Source of the DNA: Methanoculleus caldifontis
GTDB taxonomy: Archaea > Halobacteriota > Methanomicrobia > Methanomicrobiales > Methanoculleaceae
Length of the DNA stretch: 64,000 nucleotides
Direction of reading: 5' to 3'
Assembly: GCF_032842345.1 (NCBI RefSeq)
Contig: NZ_WBKO01000001.1
Coordinates: 434,001 to 498,000, forward strand
The notes beneath the pieces were generated by a model. The model did not search any database, was not told the origin of the DNA, and was given only the letters and a program-made list of their open reading frames with translations. Position 1 is the first letter of the stretch. The number at the start of each line of letters is the position of its first letter. Shown here in pieces: positions 7,319 through 26,972 of this stretch. A program made the position numbers and the translations under genes.

Positions 7319-9262
7319 ATGTCGCAATTGCTACGATATGCATCTCTCTTCCTCGTTGCAGTGCTGATTGGGGCGTTGATTCCTGCAGTGGGATGCGCCC
7401 AGGAGAGCGAAGCCGCATCCGCAGGGCCGGGCAACCTGACATACTACACCGAAGACCTTCCCCCGTATAACTACATGGAGAACGGGACCCTCCAGGGGCT
7501 CTCCGTCGAGTTGCTCGAGGCGATCGCCGAAAAGATGGGGGAGAACGTCTCCCGTGAGGAGCTACGCCTGGTCCCCTGGACCGAGGGCTACCAGGCAGCC
7601 CTCACGCAGAACGCGACGGTGCTCTTCTCCACGGCAAGAACTCCCGGGCGGGAGCAGTCCTTCAAGTGGGCCGGGCCCATCTATTCGGACAGGTACGTCC
7701 TGTTTGCCGCACGAGATCGGGCAGTTGCCATCGACGGCCCCGGCGACCTGAACGATTACCGGATCGGGGCGATCGAGAACGACAGCGCCGTCCAGCAGCT
7801 GCTTGATGCCGGGGTGAACCGGAGCCGGCTCGTCGAGGAGACCAACGCCTCCGTGCTCGCCGCCGGACTCGCGGGCGGCGAGATCGATCTCTGGTGCTAC
7901 CCGGAGACCGCCGGCAGGCATCTCGCGGAAGAAGTGACGGGCAACGCGTACACCTACGAGGTCGTCTACACGCTCGAGGAGACCGGCCTCTACTACGCCT
8001 TCAGCCGGGACGTCCCGAACTCAACGGTGCAGTCATTCCAGCAGGCCCTTGATGACCTCAAGCAGGAGGAAGACGCGGCGGGCGTCAGCACCTACGAGCG
8101 GATCGTCGGGCGGTACATCCCGTCGGTCGGGCTTGCCCAACTAGATTACCTGACGGAGGAATGGGCTCCTTTCAACTACCAGGAGGATGGGAACGTCACC
8201 GGCATCTCCGTCGAGATCCTCGAGGCGGTCTTTGAAAAGACCGGCGCAGACCGCACACGGACAGACGTTCGGATCGTCCCCCTGGCGGAAGGGTTCCGGG
8301 CGGCGCAGAACGATACCGGCACTGTACTCTTCTCCATCGTCCGCACGCCCGAACGCGAACCCCTCTACAGGTGGGCCGGACCGTTCACCAGGGCGAGCTT
8401 CGTCCTCTATGCACCGATGGATAGGAACATCACCATCGCCTCTCCAGAGGACCTGAACAGTTACCGGATCGGTGCGGTCGAAGATTCGATCGAGAACGAC
8501 CTCCTCCTCGGCCAGGGTGTGAATGCTTCCCGCCTGGTCTCCGGTGAGACCCCCGCAGACCTCCTCCGGATGCTGGAGGAGAGGGAGATCGACCTCTGGG
8601 CAACAGGGGATCTTGCCGGGCGGCACCAGATGCTCCAGACCGCAACGGACCCCGACGCCTACGAGATCGTCTACACCTTGAGCGAGAACGACTTCTACTT
8701 CATCTTCAGCAGGGACGTCCCGGAGACGCTGGTCCGTGCATTCGATCAGGCTCTCGGCGTGGTGCGAAACCAGAAGGACGAACAGGGAATCAGTGAGTAC
8801 GAGCGGATCATCTACCGGCACCTCGGGGTCGGCTGCACCCGGCAGACGTTCACCGACGAAGCGGTGATCGCGCTCGTGAACACGACCGCCGCGGCGATCG
8901 AGGAGAACGCCACCGATACCTTCCGGCACATCAACGCGGGCGAAGCGCCGTACCGAGACCTCGAGGACCCGGAGCTCTACGCCTTTGTCTATGATATGAA
9001 CGCGACCATGGTTGCCCATGCAGACAACATCCAGCTCGTCGGCACGAACTTCAGGGGCAAGACGGACGTCACCGGCAAACCGTTCCGCGATGAGATCGTC
9101 GAAGGAGCGCTGGAGAACGGTACCGGGTGGGTGGAGTACGTCTACGTGAACCCGGTCCAGCCGAACCTCTATTACAAGACCACCTACTACCGGCTGACCG
9201 AAGGGAGCGACGGGAACTCCTACATCGTGTGCAGCGGCAACTTCAAGCCCTGCGAGGCATGA
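7319..9262 (+). CDS. Secreted SBP-SBP-Cache lipoprotein
   Basis: A 647-residue exported protein. A signal segment (SLFLVAVLIGALIPAVGCAQ) ends in a lipobox-like Cys. Two tandem bacterial-type family 3 solute-binding modules follow: about residues 38-265 (LTYYTEDLPPYNYMENGTLQGLSVELL) and 275-505 (LDYLTEEWAPFNYQEDGNVTGISVEIL), clearly homologous to each other. The last ~140 residues are a Cache-like domain (EAVIALVNTTAAAIEENATDTF ... LYAFVYDMNATMVAHADNIQLVGTNF). There is no C-terminal membrane segment and no cytoplasmic output domain. It probably binds amino-acid-like or carboxylate ligands outside the cell; the partner is unknown. A dual-Cache protein follows. Confidence 0.8.
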   Translation: MSQLLRYASLFLVAVLIGALIPAVGCAQESEAASAGPGNLTYYTEDLPPYNYMENGTLQGLSVELLEAIAEKMGENVSREELRLVPWTEGYQAALTQNATVLFSTARTPGREQSFKWAGPIYSDRYVLFAARDRAVAIDGPGDLNDYRIGAIENDSAVQQLLDAGVNRSRLVEETNASVLAAGLAGGEIDLWCYPETAGRHLAEEVTGNAYTYEVVYTLEETGLYYAFSRDVPNSTVQSFQQALDDLKQEEDAAGVSTYERIVGRYIPSVGLAQLDYLTEEWAPFNYQEDGNVTGISVEILEAVFEKTGADRTRTDVRIVPLAEGFRAAQNDTGTVLFSIVRTPEREPLYRWAGPFTRASFVLYAPMDRNITIASPEDLNSYRIGAVEDSIENDLLLGQGVNASRLVSGETPADLLRMLEEREIDLWATGDLAGRHQMLQTATDPDAYEIVYTLSENDFYFIFSRDVPETLVRAFDQALGVVRNQKDEQGISEYERIIYRHLGVGCTRQTFTDEAVIALVNTTAAAIEENATDTFRHINAGEAPYRDLEDPELYAFVYDMNATMVAHADNIQLVGTNFRGKTDVTGKPFRDEIVEGALENGTGWVEYVYVNPVQPNLYYKTTYYRLTEGSDGNSYIVCSGNFKPCEA

Positions 9263-9274
9263 CAACCCACCACA

Positions 9275-9279
9275 TTTTT
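9275..9279 (+). terminator. T-run after SBP-Cache gene
   Basis: A T5 run 13 bases past the stop codon, just upstream of the promoter of the next gene. Confidence 0.35.
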
Positions 9280-9287
9280 ACCATCCC

Positions 9288-9294
9288 TTTATTA
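9288..9294 (+). promoter_or_regulatory. TATA box for dual-Cache gene
   Basis: TTTATTA lies 23-29 bases before the ATG at 9317, again consistent with a leaderless transcript separate from that of the upstream gene. Confidence 0.5.
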
Positions 9295-9316
9295 GTGACT
9301 GTCGTGATTTCCATGT

Positions 9317-10300
9317 ATGAGAACGTATGCAGTCCTCCTTATTGTCGCACTCGTCCTGGCGGCCGTCCTCGGTGTCGGCTGTACTGAGACCGGCGTTACT
9401 CTCGACCGGAACCAGTCGGAGACGGTGCCGGGCGCCGATTCCTCCGTATCCCCGGAGAAACTCGTGGCGTTCGTCGAGATAGCCTACGAATACGCCCACG
9501 TCCACGGACGGGAGGCCGCCCTCGCCGGGTTCAATGACCCGAACGGCACGTTCGTCGACGGTGAACTCTATATCTTCGCCTACGACTCGAATGGAACGAC
9601 GCTCGCGCTCCCCTTCCAGCACGAGGTCGTCGGAACGAACCGGTGGAACACCACGGACGCGAACGGCACCGCGTACGTCCAGGATGCGGCCGCCGCCGCC
9701 GAGGCCGGCGGGGGCTTCATCCGCTACCTCTACATAGACCCGGCAGACAACTTCACCGTCAGGGAGAAACTCAGCTACGTGATGATGGTGGACCGGGACT
9801 GGTTTATCGGGGCGGGGATCTACGATCCGGAGGAGGAAGCCCCGATCGTCGCGGTGGGATCGGACCCCCGGGTGAGGGAGGGCCTGAAGGCCTTCGTCGG
9901 GGAGGCGATCGCGTATGCCCGGACGGAGGGAACGGATGAGGCGCTCCGGGAGTTCAACGACCAGAACGGCACCTTCGTCCGCGACAGCCTCTACATCTAC
10001 GCCTTCGATTACAACGGGACGACCCTGGCGCTCCCCCATCAACCACAGTTGATCGGGACCGATCTCTCGGGCCTTCAGGACCCCTTCGGGGTCAACTACA
10101 CCCGGGTCGAGATCCTCCTCGCGCAGCACGGCGGCGGGTTCGTCTTCTACCACTACCAGAACCCGTCGCGCAACATGACCCTCGAGCCCAAGATGAGTTA
10201 CGTCCAGAAGGTCGACGATGCGTGGTGGCTCGGTGCAGGGGTTTACGTGAACGAGGTGGCCGGGGCGGATGCACCCGCTCTCCCTCCGGTCTCCGGATGA
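9317..10300 (+). CDS. Secreted dual-Cache lipoprotein
   Basis: A 327-residue exported protein with signal and lipobox (LVLAAVLGVGCTET) and two tandem Cache (sCache_2-like) modules. Module 1 (about 45-175) contains ELYIFAYDSNGTTLALPFQHEVVGTN and FIGAGIYDPE; module 2 (about 190-320) contains SLYIYAFDYNGTTLALPHQPQLIGTD and WWLGAGVYVNE. The modules are clear duplicates. Cache domains normally sense small molecules for chemoreceptors or kinases, but here no transmembrane exit or signalling domain follows, so the protein may pass information to another receptor or simply bind ligand. Confidence 0.8.
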   Translation: MRTYAVLLIVALVLAAVLGVGCTETGVTLDRNQSETVPGADSSVSPEKLVAFVEIAYEYAHVHGREAALAGFNDPNGTFVDGELYIFAYDSNGTTLALPFQHEVVGTNRWNTTDANGTAYVQDAAAAAEAGGGFIRYLYIDPADNFTVREKLSYVMMVDRDWFIGAGIYDPEEEAPIVAVGSDPRVREGLKAFVGEAIAYARTEGTDEALREFNDQNGTFVRDSLYIYAFDYNGTTLALPHQPQLIGTDLSGLQDPFGVNYTRVEILLAQHGGGFVFYHYQNPSRNMTLEPKMSYVQKVDDAWWLGAGVYVNEVAGADAPALPPVSG

Positions 10301-12509: not shown

Positions 12510-12766
12510 GCTCGGATATACTGGTCGTTGCCGGGGGTATTAACGATAGGGGCATAAACGACCCCGACGGTTGCCTTACCACTTTGCGGAGCATCCTAGC
12601 GTGCCCGACCGCCGGGTCCACATCCGTTTTGACGTAGCATAATAGAGATCTAGAACCTGATCATAACAACCGAATTTTGGAGATTGCATTTGAACTAGCC
12701 ATAATAAAGAATCGAACTTGATAAATCTATGACAATTGAAGTTCATTAAATAGGGTTGGGATTAGC

Positions 12767-14689
12767 ATGGGTAAGCCGTTCGCTTCGGAGATTGCCAGGT
12801 TATCAGATACGTACAAATGGGCTTTAGCACAACCTATCAGTGAAGTAACATCCTTCATCGAAGATGCCATAGATACTTCCCTGATTGCAGTTGGATCTGG
12901 GGGATCGTCAACTGTTGCAAATTTAGGAGTACTGCTCCATGAGCAGATAGGCATGCTATCAAAAGCAGTTACTCCATTAGAAGTGCTCTATTCGGATATT
13001 GATTTCTCGAATGTTTGCGTACTAATTCCTTCAGCAAGTGGACGCAATCCAGACATCGTAAATGCGTTCGAGCACATAGCAATGTGCGAACCTAAACAGA
13101 TGCTGGCAATCTGCATGCGTACGAGGAGTAAATTAAAAGAAATATCAGACAAATATTCGAACACTCAGATCGTAGAATATGAGAGTCCTGCAGGAAAAGA
13201 TGGATTTTTAGCAACAAATTCGCAAATAGCATTTAGTACGATACTATGCAGGGCATATGAAAATGTGCTAAATACTGAGAGCACTTTGTTAGATGAATTA
13301 TCAATTGATGCCATTAAAGTTAATCAATTAGAGCGTCTTCCTCAACTTGTGTCAAAGGAGACACTCATTGTTTTATATGACAAATGGAGTCTCCCTGCAT
13401 CTCTTGACCTAGAGTCTAAGTATTCTGAGGCAGGTTTGGGCAATGTCCAACTAACCGATTATCGAAATTTTGGTCATGGTCGCCACTATTGGCTTGAAAC
13501 GCAAGGCGACAAAACGGGGATTGTTGCGTTCATTACTCCAGAAAGTAAACGGTTAGCAGAAAAGACGTTCGAATTGATACCTGAAAAAATTCCCATCTTC
13601 CAAATATCCACCGAGAAAAGAACTCATATCGGCGGAATGGAGTTATTAGTAGAAGTACTGCACTTTGTGAATCAAGTGAGTCTATGCAAAGGAGTTGATC
13701 CAGGTAATCCAAAGGTGCCGATGTATGGAAGGAAGTTATATCATTTAGGTATCCCATTTGGAGACCCCCACAAAAACAGTAGGAACACCCAGCGTCAACA
13801 GATTAAAAGAAAATTTGGCATACTCTCGACGGTCAACAGCGATCTTTACAATTTGTGGATTAATTCACTTAAAACATATATAAAAAGAATTGAGGATGAG
13901 GAATATGGATCTGTAATTTTCGATTATGATGGAACACTCTGTAGCAACAGGGAGCGATTTATTGGGATAAGCACCGAAATTGCTCAGGGTTTGATTCGAT
14001 TACTCGAGAATAAAGTAATTGTAGGGATAGCAACTGGCCGGGGAAGGTCAGTGGGAGTTGATCTACGTGAAAAAATCCCACCCCGTTTATGGGATAACAT
14101 CGTTATTGGTTACTATAATTGCTCAGATATTGCACTACTATCAGATAGCAATAGTCCCAATAAAGGATTGCCATTAGACGACAGATTGGATCAGTTCCTC
14201 AATATACTCAAGAACAAAACTCAACTTAATTACATTACAAATGTTACATGCCGTCCTAAACAGATTACTCTCGAACCTACCCACCCCCGGTATCGAAAGT
14301 TATTGAGAAGACTGCTATTCGATCTAAAAGCAAGACACATGTTAAACGATATTCAGGTGTTAGAATCAAGTCATTCATTTGATATTCTAGCATGTGATAA
14401 CCCAAAACAGAACTTAATCGAGATTTGCCGCAGTAAGTCTCTTGACATCAACACATGTGACAAAGTTCTTTGTATCGGAGATAAAGGGGGATGGCCCGGA
14501 AATGACTTTTACCTACTCTCGGGGCCATATTCACTTGGTGTCGATGCCTTATCATCGGACCCCGATAACTGCTGGAACTTATGCAAACCCGGTTATACTG
14601 GACCGCGGGCAACATTAGAATATTTGGAAAAATTTAAATTATCTAATGGGAAATTTAGGTATACTTATACCCAGTTTGGTCGAAAATAA
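12767..14689 (+). CDS. SIS-HAD fusion protein of the island
   Basis: A 640-residue protein, first gene of the island operon. Residues ~35-330 look like a double sugar isomerase (SIS) unit of GlmS type: SLIAVGSGGSSTVANLGVLL and VCVLIPSASGRNPDIVNAF (the sugar-phosphate Ser/Gly loop) in the first half, LIVLYDKWSLPASLDLESKY and DYRNFGHGRHYWLE in the second. Residues ~380-610 are a HAD phosphatase: motif I VIFDYDGTLC (nucleophile D386, acid D388), motif II GIATGRGRS, and motif IV GDKGGWPGND (G571-D580). SIS domains bind or isomerise phospho-sugars and HAD enzymes remove phosphates, so a phospho-sugar substrate is likely. The stop overlaps the next start by one base. Confidence 0.8.
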   Translation: MGKPFASEIARLSDTYKWALAQPISEVTSFIEDAIDTSLIAVGSGGSSTVANLGVLLHEQIGMLSKAVTPLEVLYSDIDFSNVCVLIPSASGRNPDIVNAFEHIAMCEPKQMLAICMRTRSKLKEISDKYSNTQIVEYESPAGKDGFLATNSQIAFSTILCRAYENVLNTESTLLDELSIDAIKVNQLERLPQLVSKETLIVLYDKWSLPASLDLESKYSEAGLGNVQLTDYRNFGHGRHYWLETQGDKTGIVAFITPESKRLAEKTFELIPEKIPIFQISTEKRTHIGGMELLVEVLHFVNQVSLCKGVDPGNPKVPMYGRKLYHLGIPFGDPHKNSRNTQRQQIKRKFGILSTVNSDLYNLWINSLKTYIKRIEDEEYGSVIFDYDGTLCSNRERFIGISTEIAQGLIRLLENKVIVGIATGRGRSVGVDLREKIPPRLWDNIVIGYYNCSDIALLSDSNSPNKGLPLDDRLDQFLNILKNKTQLNYITNVTCRPKQITLEPTHPRYRKLLRRLLFDLKARHMLNDIQVLESSHSFDILACDNPKQNLIEICRSKSLDINTCDKVLCIGDKGGWPGNDFYLLSGPYSLGVDALSSDPDNCWNLCKPGYTGPRATLEYLEKFKLSNGKFRYTYTQFGRK

Positions 14690-15852
14690 TGAATAGCGAT
14701 CTTGCAGAACGGCTGTTAGCCAAAGTTATGGGTTGGGAGGAGGCAGATGTCGCAAGGGAACGTCCGTTAATTCAAGCGTTGGCTTTGTACAAATATGATG
14801 AGTATCAGCAATATTCACCGGGCTTACGATTCATTGTTAACCTTGCCCAGTGGCTATATCAATTCGAGTTACAAGATCGTCAAACAGTATACGATTTTAT
14901 AAAATCTAAGTTGATATTTTTTTCAAACGCAGAAGTATTTCATTTCGTCACAATGGTCTATCCAGATATTGTCCGGCAGTTACTTGTAGAGAGAGTCCAG
15001 AAAAAGGATCGACTGCTGGGTACGAGTATAAGGAAGATCATCAATACACAAGAATATCAGACATTGCTGAGACAATGTTTGTTCCTCGGGTTAAGCGATG
15101 GTGCACATATTGATGTTTTTCGACGATTTAATAGTGCAATAATCTCAAACGAACAGGTTTGGTTGACCTACGAGATCTCTGGAGATAAGGCACAGAAGAT
15201 GCGTAAAAGTTTAAAAGAATGTATATCTAAGGGAACCGGTTCGATACCTTCAGAATCAGACAATAAGTTCAAAATGCTATTTCTCATCGATGATTTTTCT
15301 GCAAGCGGTGTTAGTTACTTAAGAAAAGAGTCAGAGGGATATACTGGAAAAATCAAAAACATCTTAGATAAGTTCTTCCTGCAGAGCACCACTGAGAACA
15401 GGGATAATCTGAGCGAATTGGTGGATTTAGAATCACTAGAAGTCCATATAATATTATATGTAATGACACGTGAGGCGATCGACTATCTGGAAAGAACAAT
15501 TGATTCGTGGCTTCGAGAAAGTGGGATGAACGTGTCTATCGATATTCATCCAGTTCAGATCATTCCAGATATCTGCAAAATAAATTACGATGAGAACCAG
15601 TCTATTGAATTAACAAAAATACTTCATAAATACTATACTCAATGCATAAGTACAAGTCAGGGATTCCTCGACATGTATGAACGCCATTGGAAACTTGCAC
15701 CCAGATGGGACCATCCATGGTTAGGTTACAACGAATGCGCTTTATCGGTTGTAATGAGCCATAATACCCCCAATAATTCAGTACCCCTTCTGTGGTTTGA
15801 TGAGGACAGTAAACATCATGGCTTATTTCCGCGTGTTAACAGGCATAAATGA
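14689..15852 (+). CDS. Phosphoribosyltransferase-like protein (PRTase-CE type)
   Basis: A 387-residue protein. The key motif is FLIDDFSASGVSYL (D201 D202 ... S204-S209), matching the type I phosphoribosyltransferase PRPP loop (hydrophobic strand, two acids, small-residue loop). An N-terminal helical region of ~190 residues precedes it, and a C-terminal segment NTPNNSVPLLWFDEDSKHHGLFPR recalls proteins I remember being named PRTase-CE, found with ORC-CDC6-like ATPases in predicted conflict systems; I could not verify this. It may use PRPP or may only sense it. It starts in a TAATG junction with the SIS-HAD gene and ends 27 bases before the ATPase gene. Confidence 0.75.
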   Translation: MNSDLAERLLAKVMGWEEADVARERPLIQALALYKYDEYQQYSPGLRFIVNLAQWLYQFELQDRQTVYDFIKSKLIFFSNAEVFHFVTMVYPDIVRQLLVERVQKKDRLLGTSIRKIINTQEYQTLLRQCLFLGLSDGAHIDVFRRFNSAIISNEQVWLTYEISGDKAQKMRKSLKECISKGTGSIPSESDNKFKMLFLIDDFSASGVSYLRKESEGYTGKIKNILDKFFLQSTTENRDNLSELVDLESLEVHIILYVMTREAIDYLERTIDSWLRESGMNVSIDIHPVQIIPDICKINYDENQSIELTKILHKYYTQCISTSQGFLDMYERHWKLAPRWDHPWLGYNECALSVVMSHNTPNNSVPLLWFDEDSKHHGLFPRVNRHK

Positions 15853-15879
15853 ATATCTGGGCACCAGTAGGGATGGTCA

Positions 15880-17844
15880 ATGGTAGGCTATAGGAATCCA
15901 TTTAAACTGAGATCTGCCGAACAAATTAACGATCCCCGGCTTTTTTTGCGGGTCTTTGATCCACATATCCTCACGGTCATTAACCAAGACTGGTTTTTAC
16001 CACGAGTCCATAATATTTACAGTTCACCAGGTGCGGGAAAGACTTCAATGCTACGCCTATTTGCTCCTGATGTCTTAATGGAATTAAATAGGGTAAAGGG
16101 CTCTCCGGAATATAATGAAATTTTCTCACAGTTAAAATCAGTCGGAGCAGTCTCTGATAACCGGGTTAACCTCTTAAGTGTCAGACTCTCTTGCTCAGGT
16201 AATTATTCAAGGTTGGAAGATTACCGGTATGACAATAGTCAAAAGGATCAGTTATTATTTACATTACTTAATTCTCGCTTAATCATTTCAATGCTCCAAG
16301 GTGTAATGACATTATTTGAACTAAGATCGGTTGAAGAGTTAAAGAGTTTACAGATTAAGAGATCCCCACTAGAGCAGAGAACCAGTTCTCGATATCCCTT
16401 GCCAAGTACGGGCGACATACTATTCGAATGGGCAGACGATCTCGAAAGACAGGTATGTGAAATTCTTGACAGCTACGATCCAATTTCAGAAGTGGAGTTT
16501 GAGGGTCTTAACGCATTCGATTCGATTTATCTTATGAAGCCAGAGTGCATACTTTTTGATGGTGAAGTGGTTGCAGAAAAAACAATGGTGATGATCGATG
16601 ACTTCCATGAGTTATCGCATGACCAGAGAGATAAGATCCGCGGGTATTTGTATCAGAGCCGCCCACCAGTGTGCTTTTGGATAGCAGAACGTTTTGAGGG
16701 CATGCACCCGCGTGAACTGCTCAGTAATGAGACCCTAAACTCTGCAATTGATGGAAGAGAATACGTTGCAATTGATCTCTACAGATATTGGATAAAGCGC
16801 AATAAAGGCATTATAAAATCATATGAGAAAATATTGAGTAATATTGCAGATAAAAGAATAAGTATTGCTAATGACCGAGACATTAGCTCATTGAAAGACT
16901 GTCTGGAAGAATCTCTTAGCGGGAGGAAATGGGAAAAGAAATATGAAAAGATATATCTGGAGCTCCACAAGCGTTTGAGTCAAAAAATCACCTCGTCGAA
17001 AGCATATTATCAGTGGATCGACAAAGTACAAGGAATCCACAGTGACAACACTTCCTTCCAAGAAAAAGCAATTGCTTTACGTTCTCTAGAAATACTGTTG
17101 GCTCGCGCAGAAAAAAGAGGCCAACTTACTTTAGATTATGAATTTTTAGATGAGTCCTTTGATGATAAAGATATCGTTGACATTAGTTCATATGCAAACT
17201 TTTTGTTAGCAAAAGAATACGAACTCCCTTACTATTTTGGATTCTCCGATTTATCTGAGGCATCGTCATTTAACATTGAGCAGTTTCTAGCTCTATCTTC
17301 TGAATTATTTGAAGAAATCATATCACTACATACATTGGCGAAAAAGAACCATACTCTGTCGCCAGAGAGACAAGATCAGATAATTAAAAATGTTGCTGAA
17401 AAAAGATGGAATGAAATCCCTAAACGAATTCCCCATGGCAAGTCAATTCAAAAATTTCTTACCGAATTTTGTCTTTTTGCTAAAGAGAAGACATTCTTGC
17501 CCTCCGCGTCATATCCTCCGGGAATCACTGGATTCTCGATATTAGACACCGAATTTGCAGTGATATTAAAAGATATAGGATTCGGAAAAAAAGGTGCGTA
17601 CTCGGATTTAGCCCAGATCTTGTACTTATGCACCTCAAACAATCTATTATCAATGGAAAAAGATATCTCGCAGGGAAATCGGATAGGCCATAAGTTCTAT
17701 TTAAACCGACTTATCTGCGTTAAATTTGATTTACCACTAGGCCGGGGTGGTTGGCAGTGGTTAAAAATACGGGATTTGGCAAGATGGATTCCTTTGGAGG
17801 ACTCTTTTGAGGAGAGAGGTCATTTAGATGGTCTTAGAATATAA
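15880..17844 (+). CDS. ORC/CDC6-like P-loop ATPase
   Basis: A 654-residue ATPase. Walker A is SSPGAGKTS (S48-S56, K54 T55), Walker B is MVMIDDFHEL (D240 D241), followed by DQRDKIRGYLYQSRPPVCFWIAERFEG, a sensor-1-like segment. The N-terminal PFKLRSAEQINDPRLFLRVFDPHIL is a characteristic lead-in. The long C-terminal half (~300 residues) is helical and may hold a winged-helix at its end (LAQILYLCTSNNLLSMEKDISQGNRIGHKFYLNRLICVKF). The order with the PRTase gene fits the ORC-CDC6-like/PRTase association I recall from predicted conflict systems. The likely role is sensor or switch, not replication initiation (inference). Confidence 0.75.
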   Translation: MVGYRNPFKLRSAEQINDPRLFLRVFDPHILTVINQDWFLPRVHNIYSSPGAGKTSMLRLFAPDVLMELNRVKGSPEYNEIFSQLKSVGAVSDNRVNLLSVRLSCSGNYSRLEDYRYDNSQKDQLLFTLLNSRLIISMLQGVMTLFELRSVEELKSLQIKRSPLEQRTSSRYPLPSTGDILFEWADDLERQVCEILDSYDPISEVEFEGLNAFDSIYLMKPECILFDGEVVAEKTMVMIDDFHELSHDQRDKIRGYLYQSRPPVCFWIAERFEGMHPRELLSNETLNSAIDGREYVAIDLYRYWIKRNKGIIKSYEKILSNIADKRISIANDRDISSLKDCLEESLSGRKWEKKYEKIYLELHKRLSQKITSSKAYYQWIDKVQGIHSDNTSFQEKAIALRSLEILLARAEKRGQLTLDYEFLDESFDDKDIVDISSYANFLLAKEYELPYYFGFSDLSEASSFNIEQFLALSSELFEEIISLHTLAKKNHTLSPERQDQIIKNVAEKRWNEIPKRIPHGKSIQKFLTEFCLFAKEKTFLPSASYPPGITGFSILDTEFAVILKDIGFGKKGAYSDLAQILYLCTSNNLLSMEKDISQGNRIGHKFYLNRLICVKFDLPLGRGGWQWLKIRDLARWIPLEDSFEERGHLDGLRI

Positions 17845-18985
17845 GTTCAAAAAAAGGTGGGATCCCTATTCGCTCATCGATAATAGTAGTTTTACCATTT
17901 TTTGGCACGATTATCTGCACACGACACGAAAAAGAGTCCTATATATTTTGGGTCTTGGGTTTGATCCCAGAATGCTTTTGGGTATTCAAACGATAATGCA
18001 AAATAGCCCTTTTCAAGAGAGTTGCGACTGTTTACTAATAACATATGATGAAGGTCCTGATTCAACCTCCAATTTACATCGAGATCTAATTTCAAAGAAT
18101 TATGCCGATATTAAAAAATTAGTTCCACATTTCAGAAAGTATAAAGAAAAGAAAATTGGCATGCTTTCAGATGATCTCTTTCATAAAAGAAGAATCGGAG
18201 ATATTGAAGCAATCTCAATAATAGACTCTTTTGAGGAGATTAATGACTATACAGACGTAATTATCGACATAAGTGCACTGCCGAGAGGGATTTATTTTTC
18301 GCTGGTTGCAAAGATATTACATCTTCTACATGAAAGGTCTGCAAACAATTCAACTAAATGCCCTAATTTGTTCGTCATAGTATCAGAAAACGTAGAATTG
18401 GATAAGAGGATTGAGGATTCAGGTGTTGATGAAGAGCCAAAGTATATATCAGGTTTTTCAAGCGACCTTGAACGATCCGCCACGAATGACATACCAATTA
18501 TTTGGATACCTGTTTTAGGTGAGAATAAAAAAATTCAGTTAGAACGAACTCACAGCTGGCTAATGCCAAGCGAGATCTGCCCTGTTGTACCCTCACCATC
18601 TATTAATCCAAGACGTGGTGATGACTTAGTTATCGAGTATCACTCAATCTTATTCGATGAGTGGGTTGTCGAACCAAAGAATATAATATTCGCCGATGAA
18701 AGGAACCCATTCGATTTATATCGGCAAATAATTGACACTGTATTAAGATATGATGCCGCATTAGCAGCATTGAAGGGTTTAAAGGTGGTCATCTCATCAG
18801 ATTCCAGTAAATTGATCTCAGTTGGGGCCTTACTGGCCGCGTACGATCTCAAAAAAAATATGCGCAGTGTAGGACTAGCAAATATTGAACCGCGAGGCTA
18901 TGATATACTAGAAAAGGAAAATATTGACAAAATAAACCGAAACTCTGAACTATTTGCCTTGCTATTATTTCATGAAGATGAGTGA
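17828..18985 (+). CDS. Unrecognised island protein, Rossmann-like
   Basis: A 385-residue protein that I do not recognise. It overlaps the ATPase gene by 17 bases and the kinase gene by 14. The N-terminal half looks like an alternating alpha/beta fold: RVLYILGLGFDPRM (G42-R48) is a glycine-rich strand-loop, DCLLITYDEG a second strand, and TDVIIDISALPRGIY (D147-G154) a strand with conserved-looking D-S-PRG. The C-terminal half has NPRRGDDLVIEYHSILFDEW and KVVISSDSSKLISVGALLAAYDL, which again suggest a Rossmannoid strand-helix. No signal or membrane segments. Nuclease, nucleotide-binding sensor or effector are all possible. Confidence 0.65.
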   Translation: MVLEYKFKKRWDPYSLIDNSSFTIFWHDYLHTTRKRVLYILGLGFDPRMLLGIQTIMQNSPFQESCDCLLITYDEGPDSTSNLHRDLISKNYADIKKLVPHFRKYKEKKIGMLSDDLFHKRRIGDIEAISIIDSFEEINDYTDVIIDISALPRGIYFSLVAKILHLLHERSANNSTKCPNLFVIVSENVELDKRIEDSGVDEEPKYISGFSSDLERSATNDIPIIWIPVLGENKKIQLERTHSWLMPSEICPVVPSPSINPRRGDDLVIEYHSILFDEWVVEPKNIIFADERNPFDLYRQIIDTVLRYDAALAALKGLKVVISSDSSKLISVGALLAAYDLKKNMRSVGLANIEPRGYDILEKENIDKINRNSELFALLLFHEDE

Positions 18986-20075
18986 CAGTTTACCAATAGG
19001 CTCTAGAAGCAATAGATTGACATGTGCTGGGACAGGATTAATTGCACTGGACGTGATCATCGATAAGCTCTCAAGTACCTGCCCGATCTTTAAGGCTGGG
19101 GGATCCTGCACTAATGTGTTGACCATCCTGTCCTTCTTAGGTTGGAATTCCATACTTATAGGCAGAACTGGAGATGATCAGTTTTCAAAAATACTCTTTG
19201 ACGATCTTCATAGATGGGGTGTAGACACAAGACTCATTAATGTTGATAGTGGCCGAAACACTCCAATTATTGTTGAAAAAATTGATAAGAATAGAAAAGG
19301 TGAATATCGACACTCCTTCAGCATGACCTGCCCGATCTGCGGTTCATACCTGCCAAAATATCGGCCATTAACAATGAAACAGACGTCCGATATTTTGAAT
19401 AAAGACCTTACACCCTGCGTTTTCTATGTAGATAGAGTATCGAATAGTTCTGTGAAAATAGCTAAAGAACTAAAAAAACGTAAGTCGCTAATTTTCTTTG
19501 AGCCAACGAAATTAAAGAAAACAAACCTATTCTACGAATGCAGCCAACTAGCCGACATTATCAAACTATCACATGATAAACTTGACAAAAAAAGCAGCAA
19601 TATCTTTGAGGAGTTAAACAACCAACTGATTATCGAAACTTTAGGGGTTAAAGGGCTTAATTTCCGTCTCAAGTCCGAGCCGTGGGAGCATTTAGATGCC
19701 TTTAGAGTTCAAAATTTCCGGGATGCAGCGGGTGCAGGAGATTGGTGCAGTGCAGGCTTAATCCATTATATATTAAAAAATAGGACCTGCGAGGGCAGTA
19801 TTCTTGGGGAAAATCTTGTAAGAGAAGCGTTGATGTTTGGACAAAGCTTGTCAGCAGTTAATTGCAACTTCCCTGGTGCCAGAGGAAGTATGTATAAACT
19901 CTCAAATAACCAGATAATGAGTATTGCCTTAAGCATTATGAACAAAAGACCGGAATCCTTTGAACTTGATCTAGATCCAAAAACAGAGGATAAGTTTACG
20001 GATTCTATGAATATCTGTCCGCGGTGTAGTTTAAAATGCCATTCATACAACTCTAAAGTAGGGTTAGAGAAATAG
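18972..20075 (+). CDS. PfkB-family sugar/nucleoside kinase with Cys motifs
   Basis: A 367-residue ribokinase-like protein. The N-terminal AGGSCTNVLTILSFLGWNSILIGRTGDDQFSK is the PfkB substrate-binding signature, and NFRDAAGAGDWCSAG (D251-D257) is the ATP/anion-hole motif with the catalytic base D257. Unusual additions are CPIC at 120-123 and CPRCSLKC at 349-356 near the C-terminus, which together could form a zinc site. It probably phosphorylates a sugar or nucleoside linked to the SIS, HAD and PRTase partners. The start is at ATG 18972 (or 18978), inside the preceding gene's end. A T6 run follows at 20113-20118. Confidence 0.8.
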   Translation: MKMSDSLPIGSRSNRLTCAGTGLIALDVIIDKLSSTCPIFKAGGSCTNVLTILSFLGWNSILIGRTGDDQFSKILFDDLHRWGVDTRLINVDSGRNTPIIVEKIDKNRKGEYRHSFSMTCPICGSYLPKYRPLTMKQTSDILNKDLTPCVFYVDRVSNSSVKIAKELKKRKSLIFFEPTKLKKTNLFYECSQLADIIKLSHDKLDKKSSNIFEELNNQLIIETLGVKGLNFRLKSEPWEHLDAFRVQNFRDAAGAGDWCSAGLIHYILKNRTCEGSILGENLVREALMFGQSLSAVNCNFPGARGSMYKLSNNQIMSIALSIMNKRPESFELDLDPKTEDKFTDSMNICPRCSLKCHSYNSKVGLEK

Positions 20076-20112
20076 TATTCGTGGGGTTAACCGACGTAGG
20101 ATACTTCCCCAG

Positions 20113-20118
20113 TTTTTT
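20113..20118 (+). terminator. T6 terminator of the island operon
   Basis: A T6 run 38 bases after the kinase stop, the first clear U-tract in the island after the operon. Confidence 0.45.
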
Positions 20119-20206
20119 AAGTTGCATGACCAGAATAGTGTTTTCCGATCACACCTTTGTTGGAAACAAAAATTATCTGATGATTCTGAAGAAATCAGGT
20201 CGCGCG

Positions 20207-20258
20207 TAAGGCACTGGATCAAAACGGTTTGACCAGATAAGGCACCGATTCAAACCGA
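20207..20258. repeat. Imperfect tandem repeat at the island's right edge
   Basis: Two 21-base units start at 20207 and 20238, a 31-base period, each beginning TAAGGCAC and sharing 16 of 21 positions. They sit exactly where composition returns to GC-rich and just upstream of the ribonuclease promoter. They may be an operator for the ribonuclease gene or a relic of island insertion. Confidence 0.45.
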
Positions 20259-20270
20259 GTTGTAGGGAGT

Positions 20271-23157: not shown

Positions 23158-23294
23158 GCTCCGGAGATGCCGCCGCCCATCGTCAATCTTACGCACGCCG
23201 CCGGCGCCGGGTCCGTGCCGGGGAACAGACGGGGAACGCACTGCAGCCTCTTGAGACGGTTTCCGGCGTGTTTTTTTGCTCAGTCGGCCCATGT

Positions 23295-24236
23295 ATGAGC
23301 ATGAAGCGATGCTATCTCATCGGTATGGTCTGCCTTCTCGCGCTCCTCGCGATCCTCGCGGCCGGGTGCAGCAGCCCCGGCGTCCAGGGGGCCGGGGAGG
23401 AGAATACGACCGCAGGGGACCTCGCGGCCTTCGTCCGGGGAGCCGCGGCCTATGCGGAGACTGCCGGAACGGATGCGGCTCTCGCCGAGTTCGGCAGCGC
23501 GTCCGGCCGGTTCGCGCAGGGAGACCTCTGCGTGTATGCCTACGGCTACAACGGGACGCTTCTTGCCCACCCCGGACAGAGCGAGGCGGTCGGAACGAAC
23601 CAGGAGAACATGACCGACATCCGGGGGCTGCCGGTGGTCCGCATCGGTGCAGCGACGGCGGCGACCGGCGGCGGCTTCATCACCTACCTCGCCCCGGCGC
23701 GGGAGGCCGGGTCCGCCGGTGAAGCGTACGTCCCGGTCCTCGGCTACGTCGCCCCCGCCGGCGATACGTGGTGGATCGGGTCGGCCGTCTCTCTCTCCGG
23801 GACCGGAGGGGAAGCGTATCCCGGTCCCGTATCGGCGATGGTCGACCTCGTCGAGCGTGGTGCCGCATACGGCCGCGACCATAGCAGGGAGGCCGCATTC
23901 GCGGAGATCTCGAACCGGACGGGGAGCCTCGTCGACCCCGCGGGACACTACCTCTACGCCTACGACTACAACGGGACGCTCCTCGCCCACCCCCATCTCC
24001 AGGCCGCGATCGGGAGCAGTCTGATCGAGAGGCGGGACCCCTTCGGAATGGAGAACATCCGGGCGCTCAGGGACACGGCGCAGGACGGAGGAGGGTTCAT
24101 CGTCTTCGTCTGGCCGAACCCCGACCAGGGGAACCGCGAGGAGTTGAAGATCGGCTACGTCCTTCCGGTCGATGAGGACTGGTGGGTCGGGTCAGGGGTC
24201 TACTTAAGCGAGATTACCGGAGAGAACTCCCGATAA
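23295..24236 (+). CDS. Secreted dual-Cache lipoprotein (paralogue)
   Basis: A 313-residue exported protein, start at ATG 23295 (or 23301). The signal ends in ILAAGCSSPG, a lipobox. It has two Cache (sCache_2-like) modules: DLCVYAYGYNGTLLAHPGQSEAVGTN ... WWIGSAVSL and YLYAYDYNGTLLAHPHLQAAIGSS ... DEDWWVGSGVYLSE. Architecture and motifs match the protein at 9317-10300, so they are paralogues. No output domain. It is divergent from the MGMT gene. A T5 run follows at 24240-24244. Confidence 0.8.
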   Translation: MSMKRCYLIGMVCLLALLAILAAGCSSPGVQGAGEENTTAGDLAAFVRGAAAYAETAGTDAALAEFGSASGRFAQGDLCVYAYGYNGTLLAHPGQSEAVGTNQENMTDIRGLPVVRIGAATAATGGGFITYLAPAREAGSAGEAYVPVLGYVAPAGDTWWIGSAVSLSGTGGEAYPGPVSAMVDLVERGAAYGRDHSREAAFAEISNRTGSLVDPAGHYLYAYDYNGTLLAHPHLQAAIGSSLIERRDPFGMENIRALRDTAQDGGGFIVFVWPNPDQGNREELKIGYVLPVDEDWWVGSGVYLSEITGENSR

Positions 24237-24864: not shown

Positions 24865-25977
24865 CTAATAATAACTTACCCCTGCAGCACTCCCCGGCGG
24901 GGTGGATACCGCGACGCCCGGGAGCATGAGGAGGCCGGGGCCCTGGAGGAGGCGGGGGGAGCCTGCTGCCAGGGTACCGGGATAATCGCATCCCGCGATG
25001 GTGAACAACCGGCTCCAATCGGGTGCGGTATGGAGAACGGTCCAGCGGGTGGCGATCCCGCCCTCCGCATCCGCGGCCTTTGCGAGGACCGAGAGGCCGA
25101 GCCGGGCGTTTTTCACGGCATACGGAAACGAGATCCGGTCGATGGTATCGTCCGGTGTGTGGGCCGACTGCTGCGGCGGGGCGTGCGTCATCATCGCCGG
25201 ATACCCTGCCGCCCAGAACGGCGTGTGGTCGGATACATGCGAGCCCGGCTTCCGGGTCAGGGTGAGGTTGATGCCGTAGATGGTGTTGTGGTGCGCCGCG
25301 AGCACCGCCGCCTCGTGGGCCTCCTTATTGTAGAGGACATTCGCGACCGGAGGGCCTCCCGGTTCGCCGCAGGCCGAGTCGTAGTTGAGGTAGAGCAGGA
25401 TCTCCGATTCCCGGTCGGCCGCGGCCCCGACGTACCTGCGGCTGCCGACCAGACCGATCTCCTCCGCGTTCCAGAACGCGAACTCTACGGTCCGGTCGAA
25501 CGAGCGCTCGCTCATCACCCGGGCGAGCTCAAGAACGATCGCGACCCCGCACCCGTTGTCGGCGGCCCCGGGGGCGCGGGCGGGATCCGACGACGTGCTG
25601 TCGTAGTGCGCACCCACCACCACGACCCCGTCGGAGGCGTTGCCGCTCCCGGGAAGGGTCGCAACGACGTTCCGGAGATCCCCGCCCTGGAACTCCACGG
25701 AGAGACCCGGGATCTCCGCAAGCCTCCGGTAGAGGTACCCGCCCGCCTCGCGGTTCCCGTCCGTCCCGAACGCCCGCGTCGGGAAGTTCTGCAGGTCGCG
25801 GGTCGTCCGGTAGAGTTCGGTCCCGTCGATCTCTTCAAGCATCGCGGCGATCTCCGGGTCGTATGCCGGCTCTTCGGGCACGTCGGCCGCGGTTGCAGCT
25901 GTCGCGAGGAACGCCGCAACACCGACCGCCACGAGGAGCAGGAGACGCCCGTCATACCGCGACGACATCGGTCTCAC
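24865..25977 (-). CDS. Secreted M28 family aminopeptidase (second copy)
   Basis: A 370-residue exported zinc peptidase. A signal peptide (GRLLLLVAVGVAAFLATAATAA) precedes the M28 domain: VVVVGAHYDSTSSDPARAPGAADNGCG supplies His, the bridging Asp and its context; FAFWNAEEIGLVGSRRY the catalytic Glu pair; LYLNYDSAC a ligand Asp; and SHVSDHTPFWAAGYPAMMTH the last His. The M28 domain ends near residue 310; the final ~55 residues (GCDYPGTLAAGSPRLLQGPGLLMLPG) are not part of it. The gene starts within ATGA overlap of the preceding M28 gene and is its tandem duplicate. Confidence 0.85.
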   Translation of the reverse strand: MRPMSSRYDGRLLLLVAVGVAAFLATAATAADVPEEPAYDPEIAAMLEEIDGTELYRTTRDLQNFPTRAFGTDGNREAGGYLYRRLAEIPGLSVEFQGGDLRNVVATLPGSGNASDGVVVVGAHYDSTSSDPARAPGAADNGCGVAIVLELARVMSERSFDRTVEFAFWNAEEIGLVGSRRYVGAAADRESEILLYLNYDSACGEPGGPPVANVLYNKEAHEAAVLAAHHNTIYGINLTLTRKPGSHVSDHTPFWAAGYPAMMTHAPPQQSAHTPDDTIDRISFPYAVKNARLGLSVLAKAADAEGGIATRWTVLHTAPDWSRLFTIAGCDYPGTLAAGSPRLLQGPGLLMLPGVAVSTPPGSAAGVSYY

Positions 25978-26972
25978 CGGGCGGGCGGGGTGTTCGGGGA
26001 GACGACGCTCTCGTGGTTGTCGCGGGGCACGGCGGTCTCCGTGAGGACCGCGAGGCCGAGCCGGGCGTTCCCTGCGGCATACGGAAACGAGACGTGGTCG
26101 AGGGTGTCGTCCGGGGTATGGGCCGGGCCGTGCTCCTCGCAGTGCGTCGTCACCGCCGGGTATCCCCGGTCACGGAAGGGGATATGGTCCGAGGCGCAGG
26201 CGTGGGCGTTCTCGGTCAGGGTGAAGTTGATCCCGTAGAGAGCGTTGTACTCCGCCATGAGCGCCGCAACGTCTTTCGAGCGCTCATCGTACATGAGGTC
26301 GAGGACGAAGCGGTCCTCCGGGTCATAGCAGGCCGAGTCGTAGTTGAGGTAGAGCGGGATGGGGTCCGACGAGTCCGCCGCGCTCTCTGCATACGCGGCG
26401 CTGCCGTAGCGCCCGTCTTCCTCGGCATTCCAGAAGGCGAACCGGACCGTCCGGTCAAACGAGTGCCCGCTCATCACCCGGGCGAGCTCGAGGACGATCG
26501 CGACCCCGCACCCGTTGTCGGTAGCCCCGGGAGCGCGGGCGGGGTCCCACGACGTGCTGTCGTAGTGCGCCCCCACCACGACGACCTCGCCGGCGGCCTC
26601 CCCGCTCCCGGGCAGGGTCGCAACGACGTTCCGGAGATCCCCGCCCTGGAACTCCACGGAAAGACCCGGGATCCCGGCAAGCCTCCGGTGGAGGTACTCG
26701 CCCGCCTCGTGGTTCCCGTCCGTCCCGAAGACCCGCGTCGGGAACTCCTCGAGGTCGCGGGTCGTCTGCTGGAGTTCGGTCTCGTCGATCTCTTCGAGCA
26801 TCGCAGCGACGGCGAAACGGTACTCCGCTCCTTCCTCCGGCATGCCGGCGGCGCCTGCCGGGGGAGCCATAAGCAGGACGGCCATCCCGGTGAGGAGCAT
26901 GAGAGAGGCAACCATCCTCCAGAGGCGGATAGGCTGTCGGGGGGATCTGTCGTGGGTTGAGATCGGTTCCAT
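25974..26972 (-). CDS. Secreted M28 family aminopeptidase (first copy)
   Basis: A 332-residue exported peptidase with a signal segment (VASLMLLTGMAVLLMAPPAGAAG) and a full M28 core: AHYDSTSWDPARAPGATDNGCG, FAFWNAEEDGRYGS, LYLNYDSACYDPED and ASDHIPFRDRGYPAVTTHCEEHG. It probably releases amino acids from extracellular peptides using two zinc ions. The stretch around VEFQGGDLRNVVATLPGSG and CGVAIVLELARVMS is almost the same in the neighbouring copy. It is the promoter-proximal gene of the two-gene operon. Confidence 0.85.
   Translation of the reverse strand: MEPISTHDRSPRQPIRLWRMVASLMLLTGMAVLLMAPPAGAAGMPEEGAEYRFAVAAMLEEIDETELQQTTRDLEEFPTRVFGTDGNHEAGEYLHRRLAGIPGLSVEFQGGDLRNVVATLPGSGEAAGEVVVVGAHYDSTSWDPARAPGATDNGCGVAIVLELARVMSGHSFDRTVRFAFWNAEEDGRYGSAAYAESAADSSDPIPLYLNYDSACYDPEDRFVLDLMYDERSKDVAALMAEYNALYGINFTLTENAHACASDHIPFRDRGYPAVTTHCEEHGPAHTPDDTLDHVSFPYAAGNARLGLAVLTETAVPRDNHESVVSPNTPPAR

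Follow-up and report, generated by a model that had tools for sequence, protein, structure and literature searches.

A mobile five-gene operon of Methanoculleus caldifontis, probably a conflict or defence system with a phosphoribosyltransferase effector

We analyzed a stretch of 64,000 nucleotides from the archaeon Methanoculleus caldifontis (the window; bases 434001-498000 of contig 1 of a 2.6 Mb genome), which contains an AT-rich island with five genes, here termed A to E. They encode a double SIS protein fused to a HAD phosphatase (A), a phosphoribosyltransferase (PRTase) of the PRTase-CE family (B), an ORC-CDC6-like AAA+ ATPase (C), a CARF6-family protein (D) and a PfkB kinase (E). The five-gene unit is a mobile operon, and it probably serves in conflict or defence with the PRTase as effector. 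The explanation that we favour as a whole, giving it slightly less than an even chance, is an anti-invader operon in which B would be the effector, C and D would control it, and A and E would form an adduct-processing arm. An original prediction for positions 12767-15852 had proposed that the first two genes and the kinase form a pathway to isomerise, phosphorylate, dephosphorylate and transfer a ribose-like sugar, for the synthesis or destruction of a small molecule derived from phosphoribosyl pyrophosphate (PRPP). These positions cover A and B; the kinase lies outside them (Table 1).

The double SIS-HAD protein, the protein with the PRPP loop and the PfkB kinase named in that prediction are all real, as seen from domain matches and from catalytic motifs that are invariant in 24-38 homologues. 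The SIS lobe of A contains the phosphate loop GSGGS (residues 43-47), N94-x-D96, the catalytic Glu and His (E221 and H237), H240 and K349, and the HAD lobe contains DYDGT (386-390), T423, K547, GD571-572 and ND579-580, thus all of the HAD phosphatase motifs DxDGT, T/S, K and GD..ND. Across 38 homologues these residues vary little or not at all: E221, D231, R233, H237, H240, K349, D386, D388, R425, K547 and D572 do not change at all, residue 423 is T or S, and ND579-580 is lost in one protein. Profile searches against solved structures returned glucosamine-6-phosphate deaminase, a C-N bond enzyme, as the best match of the SIS half (8eol, E 9e-6) and HAD-IIB-type phosphatases for the HAD half (E 7e-8). 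The HAD domain of the window protein stays below the Pfam cut-off (18.2 versus 20.9), with homologues at loci L010, L047, L048 and L052 above it, and the SIS part of a fused archaeal homologue of A passes PF01380.

The score of E exceeds the curated cut-off of the PfkB model (25.8 bits), GxGD is found in 36 of 36 homologues, and D33, N54, E183 and D257 are likewise unchanged in these proteins. Translation of E probably begins at an ATG at 18972 or 18978. Since E matches fructokinases (5e-22) far ahead of entries plainly named ribokinase (1e-9 range), placing it nearer to fructokinases and ketose kinases, the predicted ribose-like sugar is uncertain for the kinase step; a weak profile match to fructoselysine kinase (5.5e-6) was also obtained. 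The sequence and structure likenesses of A, B, D and E fix no substrate.

B scored 80.8 bits against PF24390 (curated cut-off 27). Its loop FLIDDFSASGVS fits the type I phosphoribosyltransferase pattern hhhhDDhxxxGxS/T, and D201, D202, G207 and the PNN signature at 361-363 are retained in 17-18 of 18 highly divergent PRTase-CE members. By family and PRPP loop B is a phosphoribosyltransferase, and PRPP-dependent transfer is predicted. Profile or sequence searches with B, D and the Escherichia coli PRTase described below detected no relative among solved structures. In C, residues G51, G53, K54, T55 and D240 are invariant even when distant, methyltransferase-linked ATPases (15-17% identity) are included. 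Loss of active-site residues had been named as grounds for giving up the prediction; as those of A, B, C and E are conserved, the sequence part of this check does not refute it.

D combines a CARF6 profile match with a Rossmann fold: its AlphaFold2 model (predicted local distance difference test, pLDDT, 87) shows Rossmann-type layers, and Csm6 and Csa3 are among its local structure matches, below the top ones. The top Foldseek matches, tails of chloride co-transporters and universal stress proteins, were rejected as relatives, sharing Rossmann layers at a root-mean-square deviation of 17-18. No effector domain was recognised in D.

Table 1. Positions in the window of the island, its genes and their motifs (aa, amino acids; GC, guanine-cytosine fraction; ORF, open reading frame)
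Feature	Positions	Strand	Evidence
AT-rich island, five genes	12620..20260	+	GC 0.39 vs 0.62-0.65 in flanks
Gene A: double SIS + HAD, 640 aa	12767..14689	+	ORF, domain/profile matches; kept in 38 homologues
Double-SIS half of A (GlmS / GlcN6P-deaminase type)	12767..13846	+	E221, H237, H240, K349 invariant
HAD motif I DYDGT, residues 386-390 of A	13922..13936	+	D386, D388 invariant, 38 homologues
Gene B: PRTase-CE phosphoribosyltransferase, 387 aa	14689..15852	+	PF24390, E 2e-22
PRPP-binding loop FLIDDFSASGVS of B	15280..15315	+	D201, D202, S206, G207, S209 invariant (24 homologues)
PNN signature of the PRTase-CE family, residues 361-363 of B	15769..15777	+	17-18/18 distant members
Gene C: ORC-CDC6-like AAA+ ATPase, 654 aa	15880..17844	+	PF24389, E 1.2e-27
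Walker A (SSPGAGKT) of C	16021..16044	+	motif and conservation
Gene D: CARF6-family protein, 385 aa	17828..18985	+	PADLOC CARF6, E 1e-108
Gene E: PfkB kinase with extra CxxC motifs	18954..20075 (ORF limits)	+	PF00294, 55 bits
PfkB catalytic GAGD of E	19731..19742	+	G260, G262, D263 invariant, 36 homologues

The five genes lie on one strand with spacings of -1, +27, -17 and -32 bases. A first scan of one genome per species located relatives of B at 24 loci. Wherever the locus was not truncated by a contig end, all five genes were present; in one of these loci (L005) A, C and D are in broken frames. In a wider set, composed of the first scan, plasmids and a draw of Pseudomonadota, 37 loci were complete (the window and L010 counted); A, B, C and D were present in 37/37 and E in 36/37. 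The carriers include archaea, several bacterial phyla and plasmids, and the co-occurrence of these domains is therefore far above chance. The orders A-B-C-D-E, A-E-B-C-D, B-C-D-A-E and A-E-NADAR-HTH (helix-turn-helix)-B-C-D were seen: that of B-C-D is constant, and A and E are mutually adjacent in the rearranged forms, as a movable block. In one archaeon (G175) a PfkB-SIS fusion of 751 residues even adjoins a PRTase-CE gene and a separate HAD gene. The four enzyme activities thus are encoded and belong together as predicted, but they do so with C and D, because complete loci keep these two genes just as strictly. Two B-C-D blocks arranged around or after one A-E(-NADAR) were observed on rhizobial plasmids (Sinorhizobium, Rhizobium tumorigenes; L052, L050).

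That the operon is mobile follows from its AT-rich island, from its presence in the window genome only among 40 genomes of the family, from relatives of B on 18 plasmids, and from a relative (G010) in which the two genes flanking the island are directly adjacent. Convincing flanking repeats that would mark an insertion of the island were not detected. An interpretation of the insertion site as a defence hotspot was unsupported, as the flanks are adjacent in one relative and separated by genes of ordinary GC in the remaining ones. A phage origin of the PRTase was rejected as well, since 50,697 phage records contained no relative.

PRTase-CE proteins occur without A and E in three contexts, namely pairs with NADAR, operons with reverse transcriptases and operons with DNA methyltransferases. 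Seven two-gene PRTase-NADAR pairs were found, in an archaeon, Methylobacterium, Vibrio, Klebsiella, two more Pseudomonadota and a lambdoid prophage of E. coli. For the Klebsiella pair, 62 E. coli genomes contain DNA resembling its NADAR part. The NADAR of the E. coli pair exceeds the cut-off of the NCBI equivalog DS32_2, 'NADAR family anti-phage protein' (259.8 versus 240 bits). A PRTase is among the validated anti-phage systems of the DefensePredictor paper (PMC13092281). Based on this mention and on the adjacency in the E. coli prophage, we infer that DS32 consists of the PRTase and this NADAR, a pairing that the main text of that paper does not state. Eight loci have PRTase-CE beside a conserved partner, which was a reverse transcriptase in 3/3 tested, and in type III-A retrons the PRTase is the stated effector (PMC12548924). 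Transformation of Retron-Ppe1 (type III-A) into E. coli was impossible, and its authors presume toxicity. Finally, B-C-D is combined with an N6 DNA methyltransferase in Klebsiella, Moraxella and one other proteobacterium. In the NADAR, reverse-transcriptase and methyltransferase contexts alike, PRTase-CE looks like an effector. As it works elsewhere without A and E, these companions look like safeguards or adduct-processing enzymes and not like a biosynthetic line. The self-contained pathway of four activities that had been predicted is thus unsupported in that form. The idea of a PRPP-derived small molecule is partly supported, with the activities and their active sites on its side; against it stand the effector-like behaviour of PRTase-CE and the membership of one NADAR pair in a family that NCBI names anti-phage.

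In the PRTase-CE tree, for which the misframed first copy of L052 was disregarded, the five-gene group with the fusion relative of G175 (0.97), the NADAR pairs (1.00) and the reverse-transcriptase group (0.98) form separate clades. Several of the loci are described here in their own right. The E. coli pair (L080 2441-4074, strain STN0717-20) lies between gene P and ninE of the lambdoid prophage. On Klebsiella pneumoniae pKPHS2 (L066 3723-8799) the order is N6 methyltransferase, PRTase-CE, ORC/CDC6-like ATPase and CARF6, mostly annotated as hypothetical; the ATPase of this operon is present in 129 Klebsiella plasmid records and is common on conjugative Klebsiella plasmids. Two archaea (L041 6617-12536 and L042 1940-7622) have operons of C5 methyltransferase, PRTase, ATPase, CARF6 and an HhH-GPD glycosylase, where the PRTase core occupies the expected place of a restriction nuclease. 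PRTase-CE is moreover fused to an OLD-like TOPRIM domain adjoining a divergent AAA_21 ATPase gene (L101 7902-9449), fused to a radical SAM domain in a 1087 aa protein of one archaeon (L044 8289-11552), and located behind a ParB_N gene in another archaeon (L054 7493-9218).

NADAR offers a clue to the chemistry. The substrates of NADARs include riboflavin intermediates and ADP-ribosyl-guanine, in which they hydrolyse the N-glycosidic bond to ribose (PMC11543638, PMC11125620). Of the 37 five-gene loci, 16 have a NADAR next to them. These NADARs are 56-77% identical among themselves and 21-32% identical to those of the two-gene pairs, so that the PRTase-CE family acquired NADAR at least twice. Apart from this, NADAR is scarce. 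The recurrent recruitment of this N-ribosyl glycosidase is most simply read as a sign that PRTase-CE forms N-ribosyl bonds, which sometimes need to be removed. N-linked phosphoribosylation by B itself is a plausible step, to which we assign somewhat under an even chance.

In the favoured explanation, B would transfer 5-phosphoribose from PRPP onto an amine; the likeliest acceptor would be the amine of a nucleobase, within either nucleic acid or a nucleotide. C would act as an ATP-driven switch sensing the invader, and D would be a ligand-binding control subunit. The PfkB kinase, the double SIS domain as a C-N bond isomerase or deglycase, and the HAD phosphatase would process the adduct, or the sugar phosphate once released, and in this way would either protect the cell or return the system to its resting state. 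In relatives NADAR may fill the job of A and E, and in others DNA methylation may have the protecting role. N-ribosylamines can undergo rearrangement to ketosamines. The latter are not expected NADAR substrates; a kinase and a deglycase could cleave them, as in fructosamine breakdown. Kinase and deglycase together are a known route for Amadori products (PMC12632257). That A and E undo or process the adduct is nevertheless a tentative proposal, which we hold to be possible and somewhat doubtful.

Several observations weigh against this explanation. The AlphaFold2 model of B (pLDDT 79) found uracil PRTases as its best Foldseek match, and only weakly (E 0.011). We know of no role for the family of D beyond cyclic-oligonucleotide sensing, and a CARF protein is equally compatible with a nucleotide signal. 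Two of 16 genomes with a NADAR-less PRTase locus carry NADAR elsewhere, and no NADAR was found when the window genome was searched; in this genome and most NADAR-less carriers reversal would hence fall to A and E by inference. Substrate guesses for A and E are loose because the kinase and SIS families are broad. No further defence genes were established adjoining the window operon.

The first rival, a defence version of the original prediction, is that infection prompts B, A and E to synthesize a messenger, either nucleoside-like or a sugar phosphate, with D as its receptor. CARF domains bind nucleotides, and D would need another ligand, since the operon lacks Cas10 partners: the window genome gave no Cas10 palm match, and of 21 carriers only 2 have strong Cas10 matches. 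Ter systems, too, have been described as making a nucleoside-derivative threat signal with PRTase and HAD enzymes (PMC7824862). Yet D is retained in the methyltransferase variants that have no A and E, and therefore its ligand cannot require them; in NADAR pairs and at reverse-transcriptase loci PRTase-CE acts without any CARF protein beside it, and no recognisable effector domain remains for a messenger to activate. We regard messenger synthesis as unlikely.

Alternatively, A and E could make a modified sugar donor, other than plain PRPP, or an acceptor for B, and the operon would be a modification system labelling nucleic acid of self or invader. The synthesis of activated sugars typically involves an isomerase, a kinase and a phosphatase, and A/E and DNA methyltransferases swap beside B-C-D as alternative modification modules would. 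The operon, however, has no nucleotidyltransferase or PRPP-synthetase-like enzyme to build an activated donor, PRTase-CE needs no A and E in its other contexts, and NADAR accompanies A/E in its 16 loci and does not replace them. Such tailoring therefore appears improbable. It is more improbable still that B wastes the PRPP or nucleotide pool to halt growth, with A, E and NADAR recycling the waste. Pool depletion is a common defence strategy, which counts for this idea together with the stand-alone effector role of PRTase-CE elsewhere, but the ORC/CDC6-type ATPase and the repeated partnership with DNA methyltransferases suggest that the target is nucleic acid and not a pool. An ordinary sugar catabolism operon gained by horizontal transfer, to which the frequency of SIS, PfkB and HAD in sugar pathways might lead, is hardly credible given the lack of a transporter, the invariant presence of ORC/CDC6-like ATPase, CARF6 and PRTase-CE, the NADAR and methyltransferase links and the sporadic, plasmid-borne distribution.

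The operon was also compared with known systems. With DS32, the PRTase-NADAR pair of E. coli prophages, it shares a PRTase-CE with the same DD..SG loop and PNN and, at some loci, a NADAR; DS32 has two genes, a NADAR of another lineage and no ATPase, CARF, SIS-HAD or PfkB, and the window operon, in a genome devoid of NADAR, is no such pair. Type III-A retrons likewise have a PRTase effector, and the PADLOC PRTase_III-A models match B; B falls in a separate, well-supported clade, however, and no reverse transcriptase was found among the immediate neighbours of the window PRTase, which thus does not qualify as such a retron. A type III CRISPR reading of the PRTase_III-A label was rejected: the label is better read as retron III-A, and the window genome has no Cas10. 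The methyltransferase-linked operons of Klebsiella pKPHS2, Moraxella and archaea have the B-C-D core in identical order, but an N6 or C5 methyltransferase replaces SIS-HAD and PfkB, and the ATPases are 15-17% identical. The DarT1-NADAR toxin-antitoxin system is a functional analogy, in which a transferase adds a ribosyl group to a base amine and NADAR removes it; DarT has a different fold and transfers ADP-ribose from NAD, and no homology is claimed. FrlD/FrlB (fructosamine kinase/deglycase) strip a sugar from an amine with a kinase and a deglycase, and E weakly matches fructoselysine kinase, but the operon lacks the transporter and regulator of that system and is not a member by any curated model. 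The Ter stress-response genes combine PRTase and HAD phosphatase in a conflict setting (PMC7824862); no Ter genes were seen at the operon, and the likeness is at the level of PRTase plus HAD.

Domain matches identified the neighbours of the operon in the window as a GNAT gene, a SAM methyltransferase-like gene and an RNB nuclease. Elsewhere in the window, two adjacent clear paralogues of 370 and 332 aa that resemble secreted M28-type peptidases are encoded on the minus strand (24865-26972), and several lipoprotein-like genes with a common repeated Cache-like module lie at 7319-10300 and 23268-24236.

All proteins of the operon fall into named families, and earlier work has described PRTase-CE, CARF6 and the PRTases of retrons. 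An incomplete literature search did not find the combination of the five genes, the orders in which they occur, the two uptakes of NADAR or the exchange of A/E for methyltransferases, so an earlier description is possible. PRTase effectors have been named in retrons and apparently in an anti-phage pair, and we found no paper saying what they do. The two independent NADAR pairings and the exchange of methyltransferase for kinase/SIS/HAD lead to a concrete prediction, a phosphoribose on an amine that NADAR can remove. It may be, although we consider it rather doubtful, that reversible phosphoribosylation of nucleobase amines, using PRPP and not NAD, is an antiviral weapon with interchangeable safeguards: NADAR hydrolysis, DNA methylation, or deglycation by kinase, SIS and HAD. 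To our knowledge, a deglycation arm of this kind is in no described defence system. An operon that is mostly annotated as hypothetical across many phyla and plasmids would thereby be linked to antiviral defence.

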